NCBI GenBank assembly: GCA_010645155.1
Contig: CM021320.1
Location: 5,100,676-5,164,675, forward strand
Direction of reading: 5' to 3'
DNA length: 64,000 nt
Origin: Tigriopus japonicus
Lineage: Eukaryota > Arthropoda > Copepoda > Harpacticoida > Harpacticidae
The translations under genes were made by a program, and so were the position numbers. Of the stretch, positions 11,587-59,773 are shown one piece after another (within the stretch, counting starts at the first letter, position 1; each line of letters opens with the position of its first letter). The notes beneath the pieces are model-generated. The model ran no database searches and was not told the DNA's origin. It worked only from the letters and a program-made list of their open reading frames with translations.

Positions 11587-14500
11587 TCAGTATTCCACAT
11601 TATAGATTGGCTTGGTATCATCGTCACTAGTGCAATGCGAGCACGGTCCGTAAAGAAATCCCAGCCAATAGATCAAGTTAAAGATGAGAAAGAACAGAGG
11701 GAAGAGCAAGAGGAACAAAATGTCTAATCGGGCATGGGAAATGTCCTCCCGCTGTTTGCGTCTCGAGATTCCCCGCAGCCACTTCTTCTCATCTGGCATC
11801 TTTCCATTGAGAAGCAACGAGTTCTCCCGACTGGTGCCTTTGCAAGGCCGGGTAGCGGCCAATTTCATCTTCAGCAAAAGGCCGGCATACTCAATGAGAG
11901 CCCCGAACACGAACAGAACACAGACTATGACCCAAGCCTCAATGGCGGTCAAGCCTTCGGCCTTGGGAATGTTGGTGGTGATCGTGTTGAAGATGTTGAC
12001 TAAGACCAGAAAGACAGTGACGAGAAGGGTCATTCGACCGGGCACGATGTCGGGCGGAACGAGGAAACTGATCCACGACACGATGACGAACATGCCCGAT
12101 GGCAGGTAGTAAGTGATTATATAATGCGAGACTTTTCTCCGTAAGGTCAGCTCAAAGCCGGCGACGGAATAATTGCCTAGAATGAAGAGAGATAAAAGGC
12201 CATTATTATGCACCCAACACCCGCCAAAGACAAGGCAACCATGACGCTCAGAGCGTCTTCGGTCGTGTTGATATGAACGAACGAGAGGCAAAGAAAGAGC
12301 CCACCAACCAGCTTTCTGCCAGTTACGTGTAGTAGTCTGTGGTGGCCCAAGATGACTCAAGAGATAATAATGAGAGCCTCATTTAGCTTAATGAGTGCTT
12401 AGCATAATGCCACGATACCCGAGAAACGCTTGGAAGTCGAAAACCAAAATGGGAAGAAGGAGCCAATAATGCTGGAGGCTGCCGAAGCTTCCATCGCGTT
12501 TTAAGCGTGAGAACCTGGAGGGAACGGGAACGCAGGTTCCCTATTGGAATTCTCATGTGTTTTTTTCCACGCTCTCGAGTCGATGATCCTTTTCCAAATA
12601 GCGATTGGCTTGTCGGTCATATTTGTGATGGGGAAATAAACAAACGAACTGCCCTTACATTCCCACTCTTCGTGTGAAGAGAGCGTGCGTAGTGCACTTG
12701 AGGAATATTGAACATGTTTACGAGGCCATCAATTGAGTGAGCTAAATGGAGGTGGATTTACTCCAAATAAAAGCCAGGATCAAAAGTGAGCGAGTGAGCT
12801 TTAGCTGGTATTCGAACAAATGCCTAAAGACGATGTCTTTGACCCGAAAATGAGCTTTCCAGGGACAGGAGTCTTGATCCGAGGTTAACAATGGACTTAT
12901 TTCTTCGGAGGGGATAGATGGGTGTCATGTTCCCACTCTTAGTCGAAAGATTTCATTTCTACCCAAAAGAAACCTTAACAGTGGAAAAGATAGAAAAATA
13001 AGGAATCTCAAATATTGTGACAGACTTGGCACCCTTGGTATCTTATAATTAGATTATACCAGATCTGGGGTAGCTCTTGGAACAAATTATCCCCTATGGT
13101 AGGTTTCAGAGGACGACTTTTGACTGTCTCTCCAGGGCTTTCATGACATTAATCCTGTTCCTTCTCTTTCCATCTCTTTCTCTCTTTTCCTCTTACACAC
13201 TCTCAAATGAGTTTTGCTTGCTTTTCTACTTAAAAATGAATTAATGGAGCCTTTCAAGGCTCTTCACAAGCTTCAGAAGTGATCCATTTTTGTCTTGCAT
13301 TGCTTATTTCTCACGAGCCTAACTTGGGGTTCGTTTTTAGTCAAAAATTTTCAAAATAAACCGCCCCAAACCGACGATCTTTGGTCCTGGTCCAGCTTTT
13401 GTTATTACTCGCATGCTGTTAGTTGGCTTGATAAATTAGTTCAGCTTGGATGCTTTGCCAGATTGGTAGACCACGGGCAACAAAAAGATGATAAATTAGC
13501 CTCAACCATAATGTCCTCGAGTGGTCTAGTTATGAAACATTTCTTCCATTTCCCCACTTCCATGGACTCCCCCAAACTTGATGGGTTCTTACTTCGGACC
13601 TGAAAATTGCGATCTGGTGCTGATTGAGCCACTAACGCTTGAATGAAGGTCCTCAAGTCCTCTCTCTCTTCAATTGATTACATTGCATTTTCTCTCTTGA
13701 AACGACAAGTTGCAGGATGATGCCAAAAACTTAAAAAAAGGGACCCACTTTCCTTCGACAGACCGGTCGTTATCGTCGTTTTCGACTCACTCATCCTGCC
13801 TCCCATCTTTGCTGGCCTCTTTGAGTCGTCCTCTCTCGTTCTCGATGTAAGTGCATCACTATCTCACACCCAAGAGAGCCAAGGCTTCCTGAGTGACAAA
13901 GAACACTGAAAATTGGGAATGGTCACCTTTCGTTCGTTCCGCCCTGACAACTTCGGCCTTTTGCCCTAAAGTATGAGCTCTCGGAATTCTAATCCGAATG
14001 AACTGCCCTCATCCAAGGTTGAATAAAACATCACTTAAGCTCCAAGAGAGCTCCTTCCCGAGGCAAGTTTTGATATCAATTTTTGCTCGTCATATGAAGA
14101 CGTGTGGTGCAAGTTTTGTCAGATAAAAAGACATCAAACCCAAGTGTCTAAATAAGTGAATTCCCCCAAGACCAAACTTTTCTATTAAGAAGATGTTCTT
14201 TTGTAATTTGAACCAACTTGAATCTCTTTCACGGGAAGTGATCATCCTTGAAGAAGGGCACTCCAAAGAAATATGTCCATTAAGGTTTTACTGATCGTTT
14301 CGCGAGGCTCTGGGCAAAAAATCTGATAAAGATTGTTCTAGTCAGCTTGTTCTCACCTGTTAGGGCAAAGTAGGTTTGGTCCTTCTCACTCAATTTGTTG
14401 ATATCAATGAAGTAGTCTAAGACGGAGCGGATCTGTTTTTCATCGGCAATGAACTCGTCCTTAAAGATCATTTTCGTCACGTCATAATTGAAGCTTCCGA

Positions 14501-15140
14501 CTTGGAAGCGGCAAACTTGAATGTCCAGCGGGAACGAGTTGAATGTCATTGGACAGATGAAGGTGATTCGGGTGGCTACAGCGTACATGATCTCAAAGTT
14601 CCGATTCAGCCAGAGACCCTCGAGTTTGGACAATACATCCAGTGTTTTGAACTCTTTCAGGTTGAGAATTTCTGCGTCTGGGAGCCAGAACTCCTTGATG
14701 AAGCTCACATCGACCGGGATCCAAGAATCCGCGCTCTCGCCACGTTTGAGGATTTGATCCATCTTCTCTTGGTCGATGATCATTCTCTGGTCTGTCCATC
14801 GGACCACGAAAAATGCATTCAGGGTAATACTATACTCTTGGTCATCGATCTTGGGTATGTCCTTGATATCGATACCCACGTTCACCACTGTCCTCGTCTC
14901 GTTTGGCAAATCAAACTTTGAGTAATTGGCCGGGATACAGATTGCATCGCCTTTGGCGCACACTTTTCTCAAGGGAGCCACGGGACAGCAAGCGTTCAAA
15001 TTAAGGCTGTCCTCACTGCCATCGTCCCTGACTGCTCTGGGATATCGGGAGGATCTGCCCGATAACGTGTGGCTTCGATGATGTTCACTGGCTGTTAAGG
15101 TTGTCAGTCCGATTAGTATCAAAAGTTGCCCACTGTTCAT
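11587..15140 (-). CDS. Cys-loop ligand-gated ion channel subunit, pHCl-2/Hodor-like (anion type)
   Basis: Two exons, 15140-14357 and 12176-11587, joined in phase 1 across a 2180-bp GT-AG intron (donor GTGAG, acceptor TTCTAG), give a 457-residue subunit. Residues 1-18 look like a signal peptide. The extracellular domain has the loop A-like WLPDAEILN (about 152-160) and the defining Cys loop C196-C210 with exactly 13 residues between. Four membrane segments lie at about 281-301, 309-328, 341-361 and 413-436. The M1-M2 junction PDIVPGR followed by MTLLVTVFLVLVN carries the -2' proline and 0' arginine of anion-selective receptors. The TM2-TM3 block closely resembles the insect orphan group containing pHCl-2 (Hodor), reported as pH- or zinc-gated. 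The M3-M4 loop is short (about 50 residues). An extra cysteine cluster (CC at 51-52, C61, C68) precedes the domain. A 5' UTR intron is possible because TTCTTGACAG lies just before the ATG. Ligand unknown. Confidence 0.88.
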
Positions 15141-18100
15141 GATGATTGTCTGTCAAGAAAGGTTGGAAAGGAAGGAGGGAAGAAGATTGGTCCAGGCAAG
15201 AGTGGAACCACTCGGCAATAAACCGTCTTGTACGGAGTGTGTAATAGAATAAGGGCTGAGGAGAATCACCACAACGAGGAGAAGGAAAGGGAAAAGGAAG
15301 AGGTGAAGAAAAGATTTTGCTTTTCTTCAGAGAATGGCCAATGGAGGTGAAGCTTTTAGCCGAGCAGACGGAGTCCGGAAAAGTTTCGGTCCATTTACAG
15401 TAGTAGTCAAGGAAAAAGATGCGTGTGCTTAGTTGAGAAGTTTCACATCCTTTCACCTTCTCGTTTTCACATATTTCTTCCCCAATCTGCTTTTTCTTCT
15501 CGTCCTTCAATCGAAAATGTCAAGCCGTTCGCCAACGAGAGATCCCAGGGGTTCCCTCAATCAAGACCACCACTGACCTTGGTCGAAGATCTCACGGACT
15601 CTGGAATGTAGTACTCGCGCCGTATTTTGAGCCTCTGCCGAGGTTTCAAGAAGTGTTATGTGTTCTATTGCGTTCCACTGAGTTATGAGGTGAACGTTGG
15701 ACCGTCCACTCACTTTGGAATGAGAATGGATGACCCAGACGCGTCTTGATGGATTTTGGTTGCCTTAAGATATATATATGCCAATGGACTCTCCAGAAAT
15801 GACCCTCTTTTGTATTGGCTCAACAACGTGTGGGTGCACTGTTAAAAACTTTCGTCCATATAGATGATTTGCTTTCTCAAAATTTTACAAAGCTTTCAGA
15901 CAATCCTGGAGCTAAAGATTCATCGCGTTGGTCACTCTCGACCTGTACGGTTCTCCCATCAGAAAGTGGAAGCGAACTTTTCGTCAAAGTTTATCGCTTG
16001 GGCCTACCAATTCTCATAACAGTTTTTGCTTCTTCCGGGTAAACGCGGTCCCCTGCTCGTCTTCCTATTATTCTTTGGGCTTTGGTTGTCCTTTGTTGGT
16101 CCTATTCTTGTTTGTTTAGTTTGTGTCACCTTGGGCAAACTTTCGTTAGTTGGTTGGCTAGCTGGCTCATATCACACGGATAGACATTATGTCAATGGCC
16201 TTTGATACGTTTCTTCACAAGGCGAATGAATATCCACCTTGGGATCGTGAATGGGAAAAGGGTCCCGGAGAGAACCGTAATGGAACGTGAGCTCCTAAAT
16301 GAGGCTGGCAAGTTTCTTTTCTTCTGTGTATCTTGGTGCATGTACGTAGTACGGTTAGATGAAACAACTTCTCCACTCTTGACGGCAATGGAACACACGC
16401 GGTAATTGTCCCAAGTGTGTGTTTTGTTTTTGCGGGGCGGAGAAAAATGTTGTACTAATGTGAGGAGAGTAAAAAAGGCCGCCCTTCTTCACTTCACATC
16501 CGTTCAAGTTGAGAAGGCGCTCACGAAGGAAGGATCCTCTGGACTTGCCTAAAAGAAAAAGAGACAAAAAGATGAGCCTAGGCACCATTTATCAACCCAA
16601 TGATAACTGAGATTTTGTGCATATTTTCGTGCCATATCATTTTGGCCCGAGGCAAACATTCGTGCCTAGTCTTAGTCTTGCTGAAAGGTCCAGATGGCAC
16701 CAGTCTTGCGGATTCCCCAACGAACATGTTCCTCTTTGCTCGGAGAACACTGATTTCCCACAAATACTGGTTTTATTCGGTCACGGAGACAATAAAATCA
16801 AAGTTTGCCGATCACTTTCTAATGCATTTTTGATGTGCTCTGACCGTGAAATGTTTTCGAGCATCTTTCTTTTTAGAAAGTGAAATCAAAGGAACTTCTC
16901 TTGTTTCACCTAATTTGAGCTAGGTTTTCCACGCATTTTTGACAATATCATTCGCCCAAACTATAGATTTTGTTTATCAAGAGATCATCAGATCTATAAA
17001 ACAGGCCCCAAGTACAATCATCATAATAATTGAGAAAATAATTTGTCCGTGAAAATCAGTATATGCAGGGACCCCTGAAGTATCACTAGTGTTATATAGG
17101 TTTTCCCTAGTTAATGTGACGTGGTTTTGGTATATGTAATTTCTCATTTTCTATACGTTAAAATACAACACATGGTGTCATAATTACAAACTTGGTATAT
17201 CGCAATTAATCATTCCGGAAATGTAATAATCAGGGTTTGACATCAAATTAGATCTTTGGAAATACTTCTGAAGGGGCTGTCGTGACAGAAATATAATACG
17301 CTGATCTTCGTGATGAAAGTACAAAAGAAGGTGAAATAGATTGCTTAGAAACATTCAAAACATGTTTGTGGATATTTTAACTTTTAAACTGAAGAAAACC
17401 TTCTCGTTTTGAAATTCAATTGGAACTATTTGCAGATTCGTTTTGGGGAGCAGATGAACTTTTTCAAGCGTCGTTCATCTTATATCAAGATTCTTCATCG
17501 CTTTAATTCATCCAAAAAAAAGAATGGTTTCCATTCAAGACGGTCTCCGAAGGTACGAGCCGTCAAAATTGTCAATATGAGAAGCCATCTTCTAAAACTC
17601 ATTACTATGATGCCATTTACGTATATGTTCCCACCATAGTTGTCCACAAAAACTGAAGGGAGGCGTCGGTCCCAAGAGGGGATATAAATTGCCAATGCCA
17701 ATGATATTAAGACACTTTAGGGCCACACTGTCAGTTTCATCCTCTCGCTTAGTGGAATATTTTTCCTTGAGAGAGAGAAAGAAAGAGCCGAGCACATTGT
17801 GAAACTCCTCTCAAAAGCTCGGCGCATTGCTTAGACTACCAATTCAATTTCCATCTTCCACCAAAAGTGAAAAGAGCGTGATTTGGAGATCCATTTTCTG
17901 CATTCCACAATGTATCAGAACTTGAAGATAACCCGGTAACTATGGAGTATTCATCCGTCAAACCTAAGGAAACTTGATCTCACGTTCAAGAGATGCAAGG
18001 AGCTTGTCTGGGCTAATAACAGGACTACTTTTGAGCCCTTGTTATTACAGAACAGTAGAAGCAACAAGGCTTTCTCGAACTGACCATTTGGCCGGTTCCA

Positions 18101-18660: not shown

Positions 18661-18779
18661 TGTAAGAGCATACAAACCGACAAAGGCTGAGGGTAAGTGT
18701 AATCAACATTATGCAATATCTATATTCTGATACTTCTTATCCTGAAATAAATAGGTCCAAAACCCCTGAACTCAAGTTA
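18661..18779 (+). repeat. Left LTR-like segment of the gypsy fragment
   Basis: Begins with TGT, contains AATAAA (about 18745), and its last 70 bp (18710-18779) recur identically at 19708-19777. In the right copy this block is followed by TTTTACTGGCGACGAGGATG, typical of the LTR/primer-binding-site junction of Ty3/gypsy elements. The left copy instead runs straight into pol. Confidence 0.6.
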
Positions 18780-19748
18780 GTTTTGGGCGTCCCTTTCATC
18801 GCAAGGGGGACGCCTAATCTCCGGCAACTTACCACAAAGAGTGCCAGATTCATATGGACGGACGTGCATCAAAAGGAGTTTGAGGATCTAAAGCACTCCC
18901 TCCACGAACAGGCCTGTCTAACGTACTTCGACACTACGAAGGCCACCTTCCTCTTTACGGACGCCCACCGAGACGGACTTTGTGCTGTCTTGTGCCAAGG
19001 TGACGATATCGATCATCTAAAGACGGTGGCCATCTCATCTCGAGCCACAACATCAACAGAAAAGAGGTACCCCCAGATCGATTTGGAGGCCATGGCCATC
19101 GACCATGGTCTTCGAAAAATGAAGATCTACTTGGTGGGCAATCCTAACGTCACCATCATAACTGATCATAAGCCACTCCTCCCAATCTTCCGTGGGACAC
19201 GACCAGGCTCGGTCCGTACCGACCGAATCATCTTGCGACATCAAGACGTGGGCTACAAGATTATTTGGCGAGCGGGTAAAGCCAACCCCGCCGACTTCTT
19301 CAGTCGTAACCCTACACCACTGAACCAGATCTCCTCGGAGGATCTTCAATCAACGCAGGAACTCGAGAAATTGATCTACGCCACCCTGAACGGAGACGTG
19401 CTACAAAATCTCACACCAAGTATTGTTTGTAAACACACCGACATGGACGTAGAACTTCAACATTTGAAGAAAGCGATCCGGGATGGAAAATTACCCAAAA
19501 TAAGAACGTTGCTAAAGTACAAAAAAGTATTCTCTGAGCTTACCTTGTCTGAGGGTGGGAACATCCTTAGAGGTCATCGGATCCTGCTGCCAAAAGGACT
19601 ACATCAGAAAACAATAGCATTAGCCCATGGGGGCTCGCATCTGGGAATATCCTCCATGAAAAGGCGACTTCGGACTGTTGTATGGTTCCCGGGGATGGAT
19701 CGAGGAGTATGCAATATCTATATTCTGATACTTCTTATCCTGAAATAA
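18711..19748 (+). pseudogene. Ty3/gypsy pol fragment: RT thumb, RNase H, integrase zinc finger
   Basis: An open frame whose first 22 codons are LTR sequence and the remainder is pol. It starts in the RT connection (FIWTDVHQKEFEDLKHSL) and contains a complete RNase H (FLFTDAHRDGLCAVLCQ with the first Asp, DLEAMAIDHGLRKMKIYL with the Glu, ITDHKPLLPIF with the second Asp, and a final ADFFSRNP), then a linker and the beginning of the integrase H2C2 finger (AHGGSHLG...VVWFPGMD). The frame then reads into LTR sequence at 19708, truncating integrase before its CxxC and catalytic core. Gag, protease and the RT catalytic palm are missing, so the copy cannot be autonomous although the remaining frame is intact. 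Intactness over about 930 bp suggests recent insertion. Confidence 0.88.
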
Positions 19749-48700: not shown

Positions 48701-50434
48701 CAAGTTTTACTTGCATTTTTTGGCTTCTACTTTTATTTTTTTCTGCCCTACATATTGTTGCAATATGGTGATGGGTCCAATTTGGCCATGAGCGGTGTGG
48801 TTCACTGTGGAAGTGTGGCGAAATAAGAGTTAAGTCATTTAACTTAAGTAAATGGTACTTGAAAGCTCAATAAAACGAATGTCGAGATGTTAGAAATCTT
48901 TCAAGAAGACCCTATTTGAGTCTTATACAATTCGATCTGATGCGAATTTGCACCGATCTGGATCAAAGCCGGCTTAAAAATTATGATTTCAGTTCGGAAC
49001 CAAACCAGTTCAATTTGAAAAGTCACTAAACTGATTTTGACCCAGAACCCAAAAAATCTTGGCGTGACCCATTTATACCAACATGTTTTGTATTTTTCCC
49101 ATTCTTTTACCATATTTTTCCACTTTTATTTGCATTTTTTACTTTTTCATTTTTTTTACATTTTTCACCTTTTTCATGTGCATTTTATTTACCACTCTAC
49201 AAATGACACTTAAAAATCGACTGCATTGGTATATCAAGCTTTTTTCCTGCTAGCCCAATTAGAGATCTATCTCTGCATTCTACAGTACTAATCGTCAAAA
49301 AACGTTGAACATATGCATGGGAATGAGAGGAGGGAGCCTCACAAATGGTGCAAGTATTTTTTCCCGGATCTTCGGAGTTCACTTGACTTGTAGCTAGATG
49401 AAAAAGGACTTGCACCCCACCCCTCCTTATAAATGTTAGAACAAAGAAAATTGGTCTCCCTTTCTGTGCCGTAAAAAGCTCTCGAAATATGACTCCATCA
49501 CGGGATCAAACTTTTAGCTTGTTAAGAATTCAGCACAAAGCCGATGGGAGTTGTGTTACGCACCTTTGAACACCCTCGCCTCTTTGTCATTTGCCTGAAC
49601 ATTGTGTAATTTTGTATTTTTGCGGTCATTGACGGACTTTTTATGATACAAAAAATTGGTCCGCAAAATATTTTGCAAGGTGGTTGAGCCTGGAAATTGA
49701 TTCTCAACTTTCAAGTCAGCGATTCGACGCAGTGCACTCTGGTCCTCCAAAACAGCGATCACGTGCTTTGAATTAACAATGTCTCAAAAGTACACTTTAG
49801 CCATCTACTTAGGGCAAATTAGGAGGAAAAAATGGGCACCAGATTAACTGATTCATTAAGACGGATCATTTCCCTTCTCTTAGCTGCAACCTTCGTGAAC
49901 CACTCTAAAGCAATTTGCAACACGTTAAGCTCTTGGTGTTAATGGGTGCCGAAAACAATTGGGGGAATTCCCCGCATTCTTTCTCTCTGGCATGCCTCAA
50001 GCCAGCTTGGCCGCCAAAGTACAGTTCACTCACCATTCTGGATTCTTTTGACCCTCACTCGGTCCTTGAGAGTCCTTGAAGTTTGAATTGGATTTGCCCT
50101 CATCTTGGTGGATCAAGCGACAAGGCTCACTGCAAAAGTAGATACGTGGAATAGACACTACAGAGGAGTCTTCGGATCCAGACGAAGACCAGGAAGAGCA
50201 TGCGGGATGCTGACAAAATGAGAAATGTCCTGTCTTCGGAGTCTCCACGAGGGCATTTGCTGGGGTCATGGCTGTTGGATTCTGGCCTTTCCATGGGCTT
50301 GTCTCATCTCGTTGGCAAATGAGGCAATTGGTGCCACATAAAAAACATGGGAAGCATCTTCTCTCCATAGGCACTAAATCGTCCAGGCTTCCACGTCTTT
50401 TGGGATCAATGTTCGTGAGGACAACGTCAGCCAT
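42728..50434 (-). CDS. SmydA-like SET/MYND-domain protein (putative lysine methyltransferase)
   Basis: Four exons with matching phases (2, 0, 1): 50434-50034, 48079-47626, 47289-46947 and 43425-42728, giving 631 residues. Exon 1 encodes a cysteine-rich N-terminus (C27, C30, C33, C37, C40, C74, C79, C101, C105, H109) like a stretched MYND finger. Exon 2 has the SET start (GRFMVASKEVRPLE) and a regular MYND finger (C189, C192, C203, C206, C211, C215, H219, C225). Exon 3 has the SET core SHSCQPN (358-364) and GEEMTISY (387-394). Exon 4 has the post-SET CSCARC (416-421) and a helical C-terminal region. SMYD proteins transfer methyl groups from S-adenosylmethionine to protein lysines; in arthropods the SmydA group is expanded and its substrates are mostly unknown. 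Exon 2 cannot start on its own, because a stop lies just upstream of its frame and no early ATG exists, which supports exon 1. The exon 2 donor (AGG|GTCACT) is weak. The gene diverges from the STAND gene. Confidence 0.85.
43426..46946 (-). other. Intron 3 of the SmydA-like gene
   Basis: A 3.5-kb intron with a good donor (CAAG|GTTAGT) and acceptor (TTGTAG|GT). No gene is recognised inside. It contains the tandem duplication at 44137-44515 and a CCAACCAACCAACC run at 46167-46180. Confidence 0.7.
44137..44515 (+). repeat. Tandem duplication, two units of about 188 bp
   Basis: Unit 1 starts at TTGAATGTGTGTTTCAAC near 44137, unit 2 at the same phrase near 44325. The spacing is 188 bp at the start and 189 bp near the end (CCAGGCAAAT at 44302, CCAAGCAAAT at 44491). 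Identity is roughly 85 percent, with small indels. No coding content. Confidence 0.8.
48080..50033 (-). other. Intron 1 of the SmydA-like gene
   Basis: About 1.95 kb with donor TG|GTGAGT and acceptor TTTCAG. Between 48.5 and 49.2 kb it is AT-rich, with repeated GCATTTTTT-type words. No gene recognised. Confidence 0.6.
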
Positions 50435-51027
50435 GATTGAGGATCTATGGCCTAGAAGTAAAAAGAGATTAAGGTTACTTGGTGTTTTTTTATGAGAACG
50501 AGAATTGGGCTTTTGGATTGAGGGTCTTGTTGAGGGAACGATGCAGTCGTTAGATGAAACATTTCGTTTAACTCAACTTTCAAATGGAACCTAATGCCAC
50601 TGTACCTTCCAGTTCCCAAAGACTTTGAGCGATTTTGCCCTTGACATCAAACTTTTCTGCTCTACAATTCACTTACCTTTTTTTTCTTGACTGACAGGTT
50701 CGTCTAAGCCAAAAAGAGTTTTCAGTTTGTCTTTTTACCAACATGCACTGACTTTCTCCAAGTTTGGGTTGTTTACCTCGTGTGCCTCTGAAAATCCGAA
50801 AATATCTCTTGCATCCTGTTGGCAAAACTTCTTCGAACTTTCACGTTCTAAAATTGGGGTTGCGTGAGTTTGAACGACCTTTAGCGCTCATCATGCCTAA
50901 CAAACAACCAAAAGCGGGAGAAAGTCTATCCCAAAATGCAACGTGGTTTTTAACCTTTCGACGGCCAATCTGGAGTCCTTGAACCTTTCTTCTTTGTAAC
51001 TTAGTAATCGATAATACACAATGCAAA
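50435..51027. promoter_or_regulatory. Shared divergent promoter region (SmydA-like / STAND)
   Basis: 593 bp separate the two divergent start codons, so both promoters and 5' UTRs must lie here or be interleaved. No canonical TATA box is obvious on either side. TTTCTTCTTTGTAACTTAG just upstream of the STAND start looks like a splice acceptor, so a 5' UTR intron is possible. Confidence 0.4.
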
Positions 51028-51035
51028 ATGACTGA
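51021..51035 (+). promoter_or_regulatory. Four-codon upstream ORF overlapping the STAND start codon
   Basis: ATGCAAAATGACTGA encodes M-Q-N-D-stop in the +2 frame. The main ATG at 51028 lies inside it. If this leader is retained in the mRNA, scanning ribosomes meet the short ORF first, a layout that usually lowers or conditions translation of the main frame. Confidence 0.5.
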
Positions 51036-54000
51036 AGATAGTTTGGAGACAAGGGCAAAAGTGTTCTGCAGAGTGTTTGTAAAGGATCTCTTGGAAGCAA
51101 TCAGGGCCTTTTATCTTGATGCTACAAAAAAGCAGAAACTTAAGGGCAACTTGGCCCAAAATAATAACCATGTGGTTAAGATATTAGCCAAAGGTGTTGG
51201 TGCCGGTCTTGGAGCTGGAGCTGGCATCCTTTGTGGGCTTTTCGGTGCTTTCAGTGGTGTCAAGGCTGGAACCTTAATGGGTGGAACAGTGGCCAATATG
51301 ATAAACGAGAAGCAAAATCACACTGTCTCAAAACAAATCAACTCTGTATTTGGCGCTCAAATGTCATTAAACGAAGCTAAAGGAGCTCTCAAAGAGTCAT
51401 TGAGCGAAGTGGCCTTGCAGATATTTCAGAACTTTGAGTGGCAATTCATGGTTGTATCAACCAAAGAAGGTTGGAGTTTAGGCATGGAAAGGTTGGCCTC
51501 CGAGGCTGTTTACCGAGTGATTGCTTACTTAAAGACGAATTACTCGAATTTTGACTCGGATTCTCTGCTCAAAGGAGTCCTTTATGGCGAATCCAAGGGG
51601 ATTTTGAAGAAAGGTCAGTCCCTCATTGGAATAAATGGACAAGATTGGAACACAGACAGCTTCTTCTCCAAACCCCTTGTGTTCTCAAGCCCGGATGTTT
51701 CTTTCGAAGAGAGCTCTGCCAGTATTAATTTTGACTACGGTTTCCGCCTACCCTTCCGATTTGAACTCAACGACATGGAACATGATCCAGAAGGATACGA
51801 TAATGCTTTACACGAGTACGTCATCGCTGGGATGAGTGAGGAGGAACGAAACAATCTGAAATCGGCCATCGTGGAAGAACTGAAAGACACAAATGAGTTA
51901 ATTGGTGATCTGCATGATAACTTTGAAACTCTGCGGAATGAAGTCTTAAAAGGTCAAGAGAAGATCCAATTACAATTGAAGGACATGGAACAAACCAATG
52001 CCCTTCGATTTCAAGAGGGAGCTAACCGAGATGAGATAACCCATAATTTGATTCGTCAGCAGCAATTTGATTTGAAGTCAATTTTAAGATCTGTTCACCA
52101 GAGCCCAGGAAGTGGAGCAATTCATCTGGGAAGGTACTGGCCTAGACTAATGGACGTGTCCCCTTCAATCATATTAAGTGAAAATGCTTACAACTCGATA
52201 GTGTCGTCCATCAATTCAAAGCTATCACAAGATAGAGTTCTAGTTTTGAATGGCATGAGAGGCATAGGAAAAACCACCGCTTGCAAATGGTTCATTGCCC
52301 ATTCAAATGACAAATATGAGCACATACTATGGATAGACTCTGAACGCACCGTACTCGAGAGCAACATAAAAGCATTGGCGGACAAAATGCTAATCTCACT
52401 CCTGCTGAACGACGGATCCACTTTGAAACCTTATTCAAGTCTATTGGAAGAAGTGTATGAGCAACTTCAATCGAAGACCTGTCTCTTCGTTCTTGCCAAT
52501 GTGGAGAGCCCCAATGATATTAAAGACTGTCTGAGCTATGAGAAAACTCACCATTTCATCATTACCACAAAGCATCACAACTGGACCGTTCTTAACGGGA
52601 GAAATGTCTCCAAGTTGGAAATTGGCCTTCCATCTGAAGAAGAGACGGTTGAGTACATTTGCAAAGAAACTGGCCAATCTAGGCTTGAAGCCAAGGAAAT
52701 GGCTCAAAAGCTAGGTAATTTGCCTCTGGCCATATGTCAATCCATAAGTGCCATCAAAACACTAAATATATCCATAAAGGATTACTTGGAAGAGTTCCAA
52801 GCTGAAGCGGAAAAGATCCTTCAACAAGGTTCCACTGATTCCGTCCTTACCACGTGGTCTTTGTCTGTGAAGCGTCTGAAGGAACAGTATGGCCAAGAAA
52901 GTGACTTGGCAATTCAGATCTTTAATATGATTAGCTTTTTACATTCCCATGAGATTCAAGTCAGTCTCTTTCAATCTCTGGGACATCGAAAAGTCGAGGT
53001 GATGAAATCTCTAGACATGTTGATGTCGTACGCTCTTATATTTTGGAAGGTTGAAGGGAAATCAATCACAATCCACAATCTCATTCAAGAAACGAATCGA
53101 ATCCAAATCAACAGAGGAGATGAGACGGAAAAGTTTTTGGAAATGGCGATTAAGGGAATGGAATGTTGTATCCAAAAGGAATATTTCACCCAAGGATATG
53201 CGTCGCATCTTAAAGAAATCGACAATTTCATCAACGATTCTCCGCAACTTGAGCTCATGATTTCCAGGCTCAAAGTAATGGAAGCCATTCAAAAAAATAA
53301 CTTTAAAGAAGCCCAAATTTTGCAAAGTAACCTTGTGTTCCAAGTCGAAAAAGATCCCGAGAACAAGTTGACCATTATCAAGGAGAAAGCCGTTCTCTCA
53401 AAAATCTCATGCTATTTCAAGGAACACATGTCGGCTCTCAGGGGACTTCAAGAGTGCTTTAAATCCCTGAAGGATGATTTTGGAGAACTGGACAAAAACA
53501 CGCTAGAACTGCAACTCCTTTTGGGCTTGGAAGAGCTTCATGAGTACTTGGTTAAGAAGAAGAACTTCAGGGCCAGAAAGACCTTGGAAGGTTTAATCCC
53601 TAAACTCATCAATCATCCTGACTTTGGGATAACTTCACCCTTGACTTTGCTCGCCAAGTTCAGTCTTGGGACAACTAATCTCGTTCATGGGGAAGATCTG
53701 ATTGGATGTAAGATGCTTGAAGAATTCAATTTGGAACGTCAAGCTTTGAGTGAGTTCAAACCTTTTTTGGGCTCTCCAATCCCGAAATTACCCGATGACA
53801 TGATGGATTGGTTATCTAAGTGGTATCAATCGTTGATCTTGTGGAATCTATCAAATAAGGGGTCATCGCATATTTGTGAATTCGAACTCCTTGGTTCTAA
53901 ACATGTGATCATTTCGAAGTATCTGGAAATATTTGGCGAGCATCCAGATCTTGTGGGATGGAATTTCCTTGAGGTTTTGCACGATATTTTCCAAATACTT

Positions 54001-56523
54001 CTTCCATACGAAGATAAATATGACGAATGTCTGGAGATCTATGAGATCGTTCTCGATCAAAGACAGAAATATCTTGGACAAAATCATGAACAGACTCTTA
54101 TGGCTGAGGCTGAATTAATCATGCTTCTAGCCATAAAAGGTCAGAGGAAGGACGCTAACAAAATGTTGGAGAAAAACAACATCACCGAACTAATGTTTGA
54201 AGATCGATTGAACCCAGTAATCCTGTTGAAAGATCTTGCCCGTGTGCAATTGGAGACTGATATTATCAAGAAGCTTGAGATTGTTCAAGGCATTCTAGAT
54301 AAACAAGAAGAAGCTTTGGGGCCTGAACATAACATGTGCAAGCTAACTCTTCAGTATATGAGGTCGTTGGATTCGTCCTCCATTACTAACGAAGAATATT
54401 GTTCCCTATTTCCATCGCCGTTTGCTGCCATCAATTTTGCTATGATGACCAATAATTCCAACCTCTTCCAACATGTCTTGGCCACATTCAGCCACAAACT
54501 TGAAAACTTTCATCCCTTCTTAGTTAATCAAATTGCCTCTCAGGGCAACGGGGAGCACTGTCAATATCTTTTGGAACATCTCAAATCCCGTTGCAGTTCC
54601 ACTGATATTAGGACAACATTGAACAATTTGGAACGGGTTGGCAACCCTCCATTGGTCCAAGCTATCCTGAGCAGAAGAGATTTAGAATTGGTGCAATTAC
54701 TTATCTCGAATGGTGCCAATTTAGAGTTCACCAATAACACCGGATGGCGTCCATTGCAATTTGCTGTGCTCAGGGAAAGAGTGGATCTGGTGGAACTGTT
54801 ATTGGCAAAGGGTTGTCAAATGATAACTAGAACCAACCAAGGGAACAATTGTCTAAATGTGGCCGCCAAAAAGAACCAAGGGACTGAAGTTGTCGAGTTG
54901 ATCATAAAAAAGGCCAAAGAAACCATGTCCTTGGAGATGCTGAGGAAATTCGTCAATGACCGTAATGAAATTGGTGACACTCCCATATTGACAGCTGCTC
55001 TTCATGACAATCTCCCTTTGCTCAAAATTTTGCAAATTAATTCAGGGGACATTTTCGTTGTGAATGAAAAGTCCTGGGGCATAATGCATTGCGCAGCCTT
55101 ACGTTCGAACCCAAAAATGATTGAGTTTGGACTAGAAAATGGAATGGACATCAATGCAATTGGATCTGAAGGGCGAAGACCTATCGAACTGGCTGCTTCA
55201 ACATCAAATGTGGAATTCATAGAGTTTCTTCTAAAGAAAGGTGCAGATTATTGGACCTCCTCGTCGAGTGTTCTACAAAAAAGCTTAAATAATACCTTTG
55301 ATGAAGACTTGTTTCCATTCTTATTGAAGGCTCTGAAACTCAAATTTGACCAACAAGAAGAGGAGTTTAAAGCTTGCGTGAATCAGCAGGATAAAGATGG
55401 CGACACTGCTTTCATGATGGCGGCATATCTGAAGAAAAATGAATTCGCTAATCTAATGATCAAAGACTATTCAGTAGATCATCAAGTGAAAAACTTCAAA
55501 GGCCAAACAGTATTCCATTGGGCTGCTTCATCTGGAAACTTGGATATGATTCCCGTACTGACAACCGATCTAAAGATGAGACCTCAAGAACAAGATTTTC
55601 GAGGTCATGATGCTTTGAATACGGCCATCAATTTCGATCAGACAGAGTTTGCCCTTCAGTTACTTGAAATCTACTCAAATGAAGACTTGATGATCGCTTC
55701 CAAATTAAGCCAAACATGTCTGCATTTATCTTGTATACGTTTCAACAACAGGATGGTGGAAGCAATTCTGAAAAAGTTTCAAACCAATGACCAAATGTTC
55801 AAGTTTCTTCATCTAACGGATACTTATGGTCTTAACGCCCTTCATTATGCGGTTTCTGGGGATAGCGCAAAAATTCAAGAGCACCTCATCTCACATGGAG
55901 CTGACCCAAAATTCCAAAACTGGGGCGATCTTCATTGGACAGCCCTGCGAGATGACACAGATGAAATTGAAAAGATTTTGGAAGCTGATCCAGCACAATT
56001 GGAATTAAGAACCTTGGATCAAAAGACACCATTGTTCATAGCCGTTCAAGTGGGACACATTTCAGCAATGTCCCACTTCAACGAGAAAAGATCTGATTGG
56101 ACTGCAAAATCCAGCACCAAGGAAACCATTCTCCATGCTTCTGTCCGTACCATGAAACTAAAAGTGGTTCAATTTTGTTGGAACAAGATCCAGAATCATC
56201 CCCAAGCCAAATCGTTGTTGGACTTTCCATCTGAGAATGGGACAACCGCTTTTCTCTTGGCAGTTTCTTTGGGACAGGTTGACATCATGGATTATTTGCA
56301 TGAACAAGGTTGCAATTTGTTTGCTAGGGACAAATCGGACCAAGGACCAATGGAACTTGCCATGAGATTGCAACCCCAGGTGGAAGAACTGATCCCATGG
56401 CTACTCGATCATGGTTTCAAACCATTAGAAACCAAGTCCAATTTGTTCACGGCCATGTTCGATATCTCATCCATGGATCCACCTAAGAAAAAAGTCAGAA
56501 GCAAGACTTGCATTATGTTATGA
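51028..56523 (+). CDS. Giant STAND/NB-ARC NTPase with glycine zipper, TPR-like and ankyrin repeats and CaaX box
   Basis: One uninterrupted frame of 1831 residues. In order: a helical N-terminus; a glycine-zipper hydrophobic stretch at about 55-92 with many GxxxG/GxGxG spacings; an unassigned region to about 265; a coiled coil at about 270-355; and an NB-ARC-type NTPase at about 380-600 with P-loop GMRGIGKTT (409-417), sensor-like IITTKHH (511-517) and GNLPLAI (563-569). A winged-helix-like part carries IHNLIQE (682-688). TPR-like helices span about 745-1110 (YLGQNHEQTLMAEAELI fits the kinesin-light-chain type). At least ten degenerate ankyrin repeats span about 1205-1800 (NGANLEF, KGADYW, HGADPKF). 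The C-terminus is polybasic and ends CIML. STAND proteins are ATP-switched sensors in immunity and cell death; here the zipper could be the membrane-acting effector and the repeats the sensor (inference). Where Walker B should have acidic residues the sequence reads LFVLANVE (486-493). The ADAM10-like gene converges from the right, 192 bp between stops. Not a named family that I recognise. Confidence 0.93.
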   Translation: MTEDSLETRAKVFCRVFVKDLLEAIRAFYLDATKKQKLKGNLAQNNNHVVKILAKGVGAGLGAGAGILCGLFGAFSGVKAGTLMGGTVANMINEKQNHTVSKQINSVFGAQMSLNEAKGALKESLSEVALQIFQNFEWQFMVVSTKEGWSLGMERLASEAVYRVIAYLKTNYSNFDSDSLLKGVLYGESKGILKKGQSLIGINGQDWNTDSFFSKPLVFSSPDVSFEESSASINFDYGFRLPFRFELNDMEHDPEGYDNALHEYVIAGMSEEERNNLKSAIVEELKDTNELIGDLHDNFETLRNEVLKGQEKIQLQLKDMEQTNALRFQEGANRDEITHNLIRQQQFDLKSILRSVHQSPGSGAIHLGRYWPRLMDVSPSIILSENAYNSIVSSINSKLSQDRVLVLNGMRGIGKTTACKWFIAHSNDKYEHILWIDSERTVLESNIKALADKMLISLLLNDGSTLKPYSSLLEEVYEQLQSKTCLFVLANVESPNDIKDCLSYEKTHHFIITTKHHNWTVLNGRNVSKLEIGLPSEEETVEYICKETGQSRLEAKEMAQKLGNLPLAICQSISAIKTLNISIKDYLEEFQAEAEKILQQGSTDSVLTTWSLSVKRLKEQYGQESDLAIQIFNMISFLHSHEIQVSLFQSLGHRKVEVMKSLDMLMSYALIFWKVEGKSITIHNLIQETNRIQINRGDETEKFLEMAIKGMECCIQKEYFTQGYASHLKEIDNFINDSPQLELMISRLKVMEAIQKNNFKEAQILQSNLVFQVEKDPENKLTIIKEKAVLSKISCYFKEHMSALRGLQECFKSLKDDFGELDKNTLELQLLLGLEELHEYLVKKKNFRARKTLEGLIPKLINHPDFGITSPLTLLAKFSLGTTNLVHGEDLIGCKMLEEFNLERQALSEFKPFLGSPIPKLPDDMMDWLSKWYQSLILWNLSNKGSSHICEFELLGSKHVIISKYLEIFGEHPDLVGWNFLEVLHDIFQILLPYEDKYDECLEIYEIVLDQRQKYLGQNHEQTLMAEAELIMLLAIKGQRKDANKMLEKNNITELMFEDRLNPVILLKDLARVQLETDIIKKLEIVQGILDKQEEALGPEHNMCKLTLQYMRSLDSSSITNEEYCSLFPSPFAAINFAMMTNNSNLFQHVLATFSHKLENFHPFLVNQIASQGNGEHCQYLLEHLKSRCSSTDIRTTLNNLERVGNPPLVQAILSRRDLELVQLLISNGANLEFTNNTGWRPLQFAVLRERVDLVELLLAKGCQMITRTNQGNNCLNVAAKKNQGTEVVELIIKKAKETMSLEMLRKFVNDRNEIGDTPILTAALHDNLPLLKILQINSGDIFVVNEKSWGIMHCAALRSNPKMIEFGLENGMDINAIGSEGRRPIELAASTSNVEFIEFLLKKGADYWTSSSSVLQKSLNNTFDEDLFPFLLKALKLKFDQQEEEFKACVNQQDKDGDTAFMMAAYLKKNEFANLMIKDYSVDHQVKNFKGQTVFHWAASSGNLDMIPVLTTDLKMRPQEQDFRGHDALNTAINFDQTEFALQLLEIYSNEDLMIASKLSQTCLHLSCIRFNNRMVEAILKKFQTNDQMFKFLHLTDTYGLNALHYAVSGDSAKIQEHLISHGADPKFQNWGDLHWTALRDDTDEIEKILEADPAQLELRTLDQKTPLFIAVQVGHISAMSHFNEKRSDWTAKSSTKETILHASVRTMKLKVVQFCWNKIQNHPQAKSLLDFPSENGTTAFLLAVSLGQVDIMDYLHEQGCNLFARDKSDQGPMELAMRLQPQVEELIPWLLDHGFKPLETKSNLFTAMFDISSMDPPKKKVRSKTCIML

Positions 56524-56715
56524 GCCAAAACCCACTCCGTAGAATATTGAGAGGTATATTTTTTGGTACGTGATGAGTGTGAAGCCGGTGAAAGAACTGA
56601 TGAAACAAAAAAAAATATAAAACCTTGCTTACAAGAATGCAAAGCTGATCGATCTATCACAGATAATGTATAAAACAAGTACTTTAAAGCACAACAATTG
56701 CATTTTGACCGTCTT

Positions 56716-58133
56716 TCATCTTTTCTCCAGTTGACTCTTCATTTGTTTTACGATCCCCGGTTGAGGCGCTTCAGGCACGCCGTTTCCATTTGGGATCGTG
56801 TTTCCATTTGAAACTCCAGTAGGGGACTTGATCACGTATATCTTTTCACCTCGAATACTTTGTCTTTTGAGTCGTCTGGCCATTTGTTCCTCGGTTTCTG
56901 AACGAATCAACTCTCGAGGCTTGGTGATGTGATCGAAACAGATTTTCTTGTTCTTCCAGTCGTACCAAAGCCCAATGGCGCTCGCAACCGTCACGAATAG
57001 AAGAAAGAGCCATGGAGCCACAAATCCAAATTGCCAAAGACTGTCCCAAGGATGCAAGCAAATGTGCTTGAGATTGGTTCGGCAAGGAACGGCCGATTCA
57101 TTGTAATAGAGGTCGATGGGATCGATTCGAGCGGCATAGCAACATGGATCCTTGCATGTTAAGTAACTTAGACCGCAATCGCACTCTTCATCGCCTTCCA
57201 CAATGCCATTTCCACAGAGGGAATAATCTTCGGGTTCATACTCAGGGATTTGCTTCAAACAGTTCCTCCGAGGATTGCCTAATGTCTTGGTGAGCGTTTC
57301 GTAGATCTTGTCTCGGGAACAATCTGAAAAGTCTCTTTTCAAATTCGACGATCCCGACTCCGACATAATGTAGTCGGACGTGCAGTGAATATCCTCGTCG
57401 TGGGGAGATCCAAAATTGTGCCCAATCTCATGGGCAAACGTCACGGACGAATCGGGAACTTTGGCTTGAACCTAGAAAGAGACGAGTCAGATTTGTTGAA
57501 AACAAAGGCCAAGAAAAAACAGGGTGTGTTCATCTGTCCTACCCCATGATTCAGAAGCGTGGTGAAGCCCGTGTTCCACGAGTTATGACAAACTGTTCCA
57601 CGCCAAGCTAATCCTTGAACACCAGCTGGGAAATCTCGATACGTAAACACATGGGCCAGACAAAAATCTGAGAAATCCATCTTGGAGAACTCTCTGAGGT
57701 AACCGTGCTGAGTTTGATTGCACTCAGTGCAAAAGTCGAACAAGATACGAATTTCTTTCACACGAAAATAAAGCGAATTGAAGTGGTCTCGCAAAACTGT
57801 GGATTGGTAAATATCGTTGAGGCGTTGGACCAGATCCTTGACTAGATTTGTCACATTGGCCATGTCTCTTTGGTAATGATTATACAGAGGTTCATCTACG
57901 GCAATTAGCATTTCACACGCTTGATCCCGATTTCCAGAGCGCTTGAACCGAGGATGTGATAGCGAGTTTAAAAGCTTAGGAAGTAGCACTGTATTCGAAC
58001 CCTTTTCACCGAATTCACTGAACAAGGGATCTAGGTCATAGTCAAGGAATTCAGCCGAGCAAACTAAGACGGCCAAGTTCCACGTCAAGATTGCGACAAA
58101 AGCATCCTTGATCAACGTCCGATGTTTTGCCAT
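56716..58133 (-). CDS. Miniature ADAM10/Kuzbanian-like membrane metalloprotease
   Basis: Exons 58133-57543 and 57471-56716 join in phase 0 over a 71-bp intron to give 448 residues. Signal peptide about 1-26; a propeptide of only about 40 residues ending in the furin-type site RFKR (62-65); a reprolysin domain with HEIGHNFGSPHD (211-222), the three histidines and glutamate of the zinc site intact. The segment around FCLAHVFTYRDFPAGVQGLAW matches the ADAM10 branch rather than other ADAMs. Then CGNGIVEGDEECDCG opens a disintegrin domain that stops almost at once and passes through CKDPCC...C...C into a membrane segment (about 344-367) and a basic cytoplasmic tail of about 80 residues. Normal ADAM10 is about 750 residues with a long prodomain and complete disintegrin and cysteine-rich domains. 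ADAM10 sheds Notch and other type I proteins; this short form may have other substrates. I found no missing exons, but the intron is too small to hide them. Confidence 0.85.
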
Positions 58134-59773
58134 GATGCCTTTTCTTACTCTATTTTCTCTATCTTCAAGGCAGAATTGGCTATCGAATCATGTTGATTTA
58201 GGTAAGAAAAATATGGTGTGCGTTAACTTTCGATGGAGCATGCCAGATGGCCCATGTCAATCGCAATTACCTTAATGGGCAAAAGCCCATCTAGAACTAG
58301 TGTCAAGATCATTATCACATGTGAATGTGGGCGCCCCTCCCATAGAGTTGATGTGGAATTTATTAAGTGGTTGGAGTCACTCACATTGAAAAATCACTTT
58401 GGATAAGCCGTATGCGTCTCACTCACTCACTCGCCCTTTGTTTTTTTACTATTGTGATAAATACAAGCTCACAATCAGAACTTGTTTTTGCAATTTAAAA
58501 CATTGGTTGTCTCCGTGTCAACTGAGTAGAGCTCGTTGAAAATCATCCTATTTCTGTTGAATCTGTCTCACAATCACATCTTGAAACCAGAGCTTGGTCT
58601 GGGAATCGGAGCACAGGTATTGAACCAACAAGAAACAACACATTTCGTTCTCTTGGCAGGCCATTGCCATCAAACAAAAGCCTTGCTTGCACCTTTTTCA
58701 ACTACCACTGCACCTTCCTTACATTCGTGGAGAACTCTAGGGTGAATAAAGTGAGAACGAAGGCGGACAAAAGCTAAAGCAAAGTAAGCTAGTAGTATAG
58801 TAGGGTCTGCCATCAGCTGACTTGGAAGTACAGTATTTTGAAGAGAGGGGGAGAGAGACAACTTTTCTCAGAGGACCAAGTGCGGAGAGCTTGTCTCCGA
58901 GCCTAGTAGTTTGCGGCGTTTGACAAGGGCTGGGCCAGGCCTCTTTGTGCCGATTTGCTTTTGGAAGATTCAGCTAGGTTTGGGAGGCTTACTACTTCAA
59001 GTTGCGTGGAGTAATGACGATTATTTTTGCTCTGGCAAAGGTCCTGGTACAGTTCTTAAGTTCGTGAAGTGCTCGAACGATTTCACTTTGATTGCACTTT
59101 GCGACTTTTGTTTTGGGTTAACAGAGTTATCCTACATTGTTTTTGAGCCTTCATCATTTGAGTTGAATTCATAGTTGGTTTTCTCAAATTTCAATGGTCG
59201 ATTTGATTATCACTCAGACCTCTGGCAGTTACTTTCAAAAGATTAAATTTATATTTCCTTCAAAATTAAGTGAGTGCAATTACTACAGCTTTATTGATAA
59301 CCATGCATTAATTTCAAATTGCAATTGAATCAATTCAAAAGGCAACCTAAACTTCGGAACTTTCATCGGAAAGAGGACATTGAAGCAACTTGTTTGAATT
59401 GTTCTTTTTTGAGATAGAATAATTAAGATGAAATTGGTTCCCAAGTAAAAAATTTAGCACATTAAATTTCACAAGATGAAATGTGTCAATTGCACTTTTA
59501 AAATATGTTTGATTACAATCACATTTATAGTGGTTTCAACAGGAAAAAAGACGTTTTCAAATACATTTTGTTCAAAAATATGTCAATTATATATTTTTTC
59601 GAAACCAACTTGTACACTTTTCGCTTTTGAGAGTAGAATGCAAGAGAAGCGCACAAGGGTGTTTATTTGGGTTTCATCAATTTATACATCAAGTATTATT
59701 AGTATTCAGATCTGTGATGTATTTTTAAGAGAATTTAGAATTACGTAATTCCAATTACATTTCCAAGTAATTA
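58134..59773. other. Upstream region of the ADAM-like gene, no gene seen
   Basis: 1.6 kb with only short unrelated frames. CACTCACTCACTCGC near 58425 is a short simple repeat. AT-rich toward the inverted-repeat element. Confidence 0.4.

Follow-up and report, generated by a model that had tools for sequence, protein, structure and literature searches.

The window, by which we mean the whole 64,000-nucleotide stretch of Tigriopus japonicus DNA that was analyzed, hosts one single open frame of 1831 amino acids plus the stop at 51028..56523 on the forward strand. The reading of this frame as one gene relies on the ORF listing of the window and on a full-length relative, TCAL_06630. Only one other ORF of at least 300 aa is present, a 345-aa retroelement ORF (18711-19748, forward strand), which according to Pfam carries RNase H-like reverse-transcriptase domains and an integrase zinc-binding domain.

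We compared ten other ORFs of the window with Pfam and found that seven match a family and three match none. The matched families comprise two pieces of a reprolysin-type metalloprotease, a SET domain, an M14 carboxypeptidase, two pieces of a ligand-gated ion channel and the retroelement. The metalloprotease (ADAM-like) consists of two overlapping ORFs on the reverse strand (56716-58187) and is convergent with the 1831-aa gene. The channel pieces, with ligand-binding and membrane domains, also lie on the reverse strand (11587-15152). By eye we read a further reverse-transcriptase-like fragment with a YADD motif at 127-543 on the same strand. On these matches, the window is animal DNA. Rfam returned no match within it.

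The coding sequence and its full-length relative

A pyrimidine-rich run lies just upstream of the ATG and is followed by an AG at 51004. Together they resemble a 3' splice site (50983..51004, forward strand, by consensus only), and an intron in the 5' UTR that ends at 51004 is possible. The original prediction of a single intronless gene thus stands for the coding sequence, which has no intron, and is put in question for the 5' UTR. A four-codon upstream ORF (ATG CAA AAT GAC TGA; 51021-51035, forward strand) overlaps the main ATG in a different frame.

The codon use of the gene correlates with that of the flanking ORFs (r 0.89; GC3 0.45 versus 0.52). The reference here is a set of nine stop-to-stop ORF pieces from the flanks, which overlap in part and whose ends may be non-coding. 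The observed/expected ratio of CpG at 51028-56520 is 0.57, compared to 0.89 in the flanking ORFs and 0.73 in the whole window. When both Tigriopus proteins were searched with tblastn against the rest of the window, with the gene masked, only chance matches were returned (best E 5.7), and no paralog was detected there. We also looked for a flanking direct repeat that could mark the border of a retrogene or of a mobile element, and found no clear one among 20 of the 42 families of a repeat scan of 50300-57000.

TCAL_06630 from Tigriopus californicus (1837 aa) shares 83% identity over residues 1-720 in a word-based protein search, and is the sole close relative among the protein-search matches. 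This would place the window in Tigriopus or a near kin, in agreement with a copepod source. Aligned over their full length, the two proteins are colinear and share 79% identity; the ankyrin part contains a single gap of six residues. Their predicted parts follow each other in the same order. A chance fusion of separate transcripts or an assembly join, which had been named as what would overturn the prediction, did not emerge, as the full-length homolog is colinear. Identity reaches 86% in the NB-ARC domain and 88% in the winged helix, ranges from 75% to 86% in the N-terminal parts, and is 82%, 72% and 66% in the first, middle and last ankyrin stretches, respectively. The least conserved segment is residues 701-800 (53128-53427), with 60% identity, below every ankyrin stretch; the last ankyrin stretch comes next. 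Residues 701-800 sit directly after the winged helix.

The N-terminal region

All parts of the protein are encoded on the forward strand. Residues 46-95 (51163..51312) form a hydrophobic stretch with 12 glycines, and the top hydrophobic 19-residue windows of the whole protein start at residues 52-61. Eight of the 12 GxxxG patterns of the protein start at residues 56-81, and TCAL_06630 has six in the matching stretch. The glycine zipper that had been read at the N-terminus is therefore borne out by a glycine-rich, GxxxG-patterned segment.

The rest of the region (residues 96-280, 51313..51867) has no known relatives according to protein search and Pfam. A single word-based search with residues 1-392, which needs shared 5-residue words, matched TCAL_06630 alone among 6602 candidates, and no Pfam family exceeded its cut-off over the same residues. 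No effector domain of known type is present among the Pfam matches. Comparison with helical bundles of the HeLo or plant CC type gave an E of 0.39 for Rx_N, and the N-terminal model, built from two sequences, has a pLDDT of 33.6 and is worthless.

A coiled coil is possible at residues 281-322 (51868..51993), where the heptad score is the highest of the protein (1.58). This value is borderline, as 200 shuffles have their 95% point at 1.53 and their maximum at 1.65. The helical-arm stretch from residue 789 also exceeds the 95% point and is the best-scoring one in TCAL_06630, unlike 281-322. The coiled coil is thus weaker than the original prediction suggested.

An NB-ARC core without the Walker B aspartate

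The NB-ARC domain spans residues 395-615 (52210..52872) according to Pfam profile, model and fold searches. The Pfam match scores 37.3 bits (E 2.3e-9) and that of TCAL_06630 (P0002) 27.5 bits, both above the cut-off of 23.5. The assignment to the NB-ARC-type NTPases is confirmed, and a P-loop region failing to match any STAND model, the outcome considered fatal to it, did not occur. The winged helix, also predicted, is present in the model at residues about 645-696 (52960..53115).

We aligned the motifs with those of 21 relatives, six of which are less than 60% identical to each other. The Walker A P-loop GMRGIGKTT (residues 409-417, 52252..52278), the GLPL-type motif GNLPLAI (residues 563-569, 52714..52734) and the histidine at the MHD position (His683) are all kept in the Tigriopus proteins. 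The P-loop is common to both of them, and His683 aligns with histidine in 23 out of 23 rows. Sensor 1 is lysine in the Tigriopus proteins and arginine (6) or threonine (14) in the relatives, and says little since the relatives themselves vary.

The Walker B motif LFVLANVE (residues 486-493, 52483..52506) is degenerate, with alanine (Ala490) at the aspartate position in both Tigriopus proteins. All 20 relatives with a residue at this position have aspartate and one has a gap; 14 of these 20 form one close group, and about five are independent. The missing aspartate was absent from the first reading of the sequence and, as far as the motif alignment indicates, is new here. The core may bind ATP and cut it poorly. 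We did not file the protein as a canonical STAND ATPase, given Ala490 in the predicted Walker B motif, and the plain reading as an ATPase switch is weakened because the aspartate is missing. According to the available text of one study, NLRP3 D302A retains 19% of turnover, E306Q increases specks and other Walker B variants are unable to assemble the inflammasome (PMC9633759). Since these variants differ in outcome, the sequence does not tell what such a change will do.

A protein-only RNase P match at residues 691-812 was rejected (18 bits versus a cut-off of 39.1; PDB E 0.03 at best).

Repeats and C-terminal end

Residues about 718-1110 (53179..54357) form a TPR-like helical arm according to model and fold search. 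TPR_12 scores 17.0-21.4 bits, under the cut-off of 30.1, and Pfam does not place the arm among TPRs. The model returns helical pairs, with confidence that is low in part. The TPR-like helices therefore stand as helical pairs, in a weaker form than first worded.

The ankyrin array is long, as predicted, and covers residues 1205-1769 (54640..56334), with an Ank_2 match of E 4.7e-53. A consensus scan detected 12 units, and 13 in TCAL_06630, whereas 50 shuffles gave 0.28 on average and never more than two. Several other matches were set aside as their best stretches fall within this part: four PDB rows suggesting latrotoxin kinship, each with its best stretch inside residues 1199-1723; NCBIfam models of a type IV effector and of MzaA, far under their cut-offs; and PADLOC models, of which the strong one lies here.

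The protein ends in KKKVRSKTCIML and TCAL_06630 in KKKVRSKTCVLT. Alignment of the two shows a basic stretch, KKKVRSK (residues 1820-1826, 56485..56505), that is identical in both. The last four residues differ, CIML here (residues 1828-1831, 56509..56520) and CVLT in TCAL_06630, and both fit the Cys-aliphatic-aliphatic-X pattern, in agreement with the CaaX box that had been proposed. From composition alone, this pattern is expected at about 0.16% of ends. A lipid anchor at the C-terminus, through putative prenylation, is probable.

Possible role and origin of the protein

Sequence matches and model together point to a core of NB-ARC and winged helix with an intact P-loop, followed by a TPR-like arm, an ankyrin array and a CaaX-type end. 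This layout resembles that of the switches for cell death and immunity in animals, plants and fungi. In our opinion the best explanation, for which we find the case evenly balanced, is a membrane-tethered NB-ARC-type STAND switch. Binding of a ligand or partner by the ankyrin array, possibly aided by the arm, would open a closed core, which would then bind ATP and oligomerize. Once clustered, the N-termini, which bear the glycine zipper, would act at the membrane, and the prenylated C-terminus would hold the protein at that same membrane. With weak hydrolysis, the state of the protein would be set by nucleotide binding or exchange and by the repeats, and reset would be slow or would never occur. 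A slow-reset or one-way switch may be expected because the Walker B aspartate is gone, leaving binding with poor hydrolysis. The likeliest output class would be defence or cell death. Within it, the immune reading is disfavoured, since the available text of a placozoan study judges NB-ARC/NACHT proteins without LRRs unlikely to recognize pathogens (PMC6321704). The boldest version, a lipid-tethered and hydrolysis-impaired NB-ARC sensor with a new membrane-acting N-terminal domain that fires once and is never reset, seems to us improbable. If true, such a one-way copepod switch would be found in a phylum that has been described as lacking NLRs.

The main rival to the switch is an idle scaffold or modulator, in which the core has ceased to switch and partners are gathered at the membrane through the repeats, the coiled coil and the lipid anchor. 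We consider it rather unlikely, although it would fit the change from aspartate to alanine in both Tigriopus proteins and the lack of an effector domain among the Pfam matches. It also has a precedent in NARY, a plant NLR whose Walker B and MHD motifs are both degenerate and which shows no autoactivity; it is termed a modulator and not an executor (PMC12405136). However, the retained P-loop, GLPL-type motif and MHD-position histidine argue against a pseudo-NTPase, and the 86-88% identity of NB-ARC and winged helix between the Tigriopus proteins is above the expectation for an idle core. The precedent of NARY and the NLRP3 variants (PMC12405136, PMC9633759) count against the membrane-tethered switch, and so do the N-terminal model, the missing effector domain and the location of the lowest identity at residues 701-800 and not in the ankyrin part. 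A protein that acts in the nucleus or cytosol, with a PKKKVRSK-type end as nuclear signal and the CaaX box unused, has in our view a low probability. The basic stretch resembles a monopartite nuclear signal, and its identity in both Tigriopus proteins would agree with such a use. However, the CaaX pattern is retained while the last four residues differ, and membrane-bound small GTPases commonly carry a basic stretch next to their CaaX box.

A separate explanation, compatible with the others, concerns the origin of the NB-ARC-TPR core, which a fungus or bacterium could have passed to copepods by horizontal transfer. This would also account for the coding sequence without introns, and we see it as a slim prospect. 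Our protein searches need shared 5-residue words, and those with residues 1-720 and with the NB-ARC-TPR part scored about 8000 candidates sharing most words. They returned two matches for residues 1-720, one for residues 1-392 and 20 for NB-ARC-TPR (7996 candidates scored). Of the last, 14 fall into one group with lengths of 850-909 aa; the remaining six are 21-30% identical, and two of these are named fungal. One match (P0018) shares 23% identity across nearly all of core and arm. The name-bearing matches outside Tigriopus are fungal (P0020, P0023) or actinobacterial (P0003), no animal-named protein occurs among the NB-ARC-TPR matches to the 7996 candidates, few of which matches carry an organism name, and the bacterial NCBIfam model FxSxx_TPR scores 131.4 bits, under its equivalog cut-off of 300. 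These matches would favor a transfer. However, identity to the fungal and bacterial relatives is only about 20-30%, codon use resembles that of the flanking ORFs, and a scan of prokaryote genomes, which reaches close relatives only, returned no relative. A scan of viral contigs with the same reach was likewise negative. The word-based search may also have passed over animal NB-ARC-TPR proteins, and closer animal kin may exist among NB-ARC proteins.

Comparison with known STAND proteins

The matches of the fold search (query residues 368-1195) include Drosophila Dark, which is an NB-ARC protein; arthropod NB-ARC proteins are thus not new in themselves. Compared to Apaf-1, CED-4 and Dark, the copepod protein has a TPR-like arm and an ankyrin array, a CaaX end and no Walker B aspartate. 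The N-terminal CARD and C-terminal WD40 expected of an Apaf-1 ortholog are both absent from its Pfam matches.

With animal NLRs of the NACHT-LRR type, such as shrimp LvNLRC, it shares the STAND plan with C-terminal repeats (PMC12370184, available text). Unlike LvNLRC, it has NB-ARC in place of NACHT and no LRR was found; neither NACHT nor LRR, which define a bona fide animal NLR, is among its 21 Pfam matches with E up to 0.5. The shrimp protein described in that text is evidence that crustaceans do have NLRs, which lowers the surprise (PMC12370184). The coral NACHT/NB-ARC proteins are also animal STAND proteins, with repeats of the TPR, ankyrin or WD40 type; they are cnidarian, and the accessible part of the study mentions neither a single chain that combines TPR with ankyrin nor a CaaX end (PMC4083563). 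A placozoan has 39 NB-ARC genes, according to the part of the study available (PMC6321704).

Outside Tigriopus, the nearest proteins by sequence in the searches made are the fungal and bacterial NB-ARC-TPR STAND proteins (TPR proteins of FxSxx-COOH systems, AfsR), in which TPR repeats follow NB-ARC as here. These relatives, about 20-30% identical, keep the Walker B aspartate in 20 out of 20 cases with a residue, and no ankyrin family is listed for those found, whereas the copepod protein has an ankyrin array. Fungi and corals are already known to have STAND proteins that carry TPR or ankyrin repeats (for corals, PMC4083563). The open-licence PMC literature returned no paper on Tigriopus with NB-ARC and none with TCAL_06630, and NB-ARC, TPR-like helices, ankyrin and CaaX in one chain were not found in the texts available there. 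The predicted order of parts is unusual within a known kind of STAND protein. With the Walker B aspartate lost from an otherwise kept core, the question arises how a switch would work without normal hydrolysis. As its plan recurs in two Tigriopus proteins, the locus offers, in a copepod kept in laboratories, a single testable gene for whether arthropods kept or rebuilt STAND switches without LRRs.
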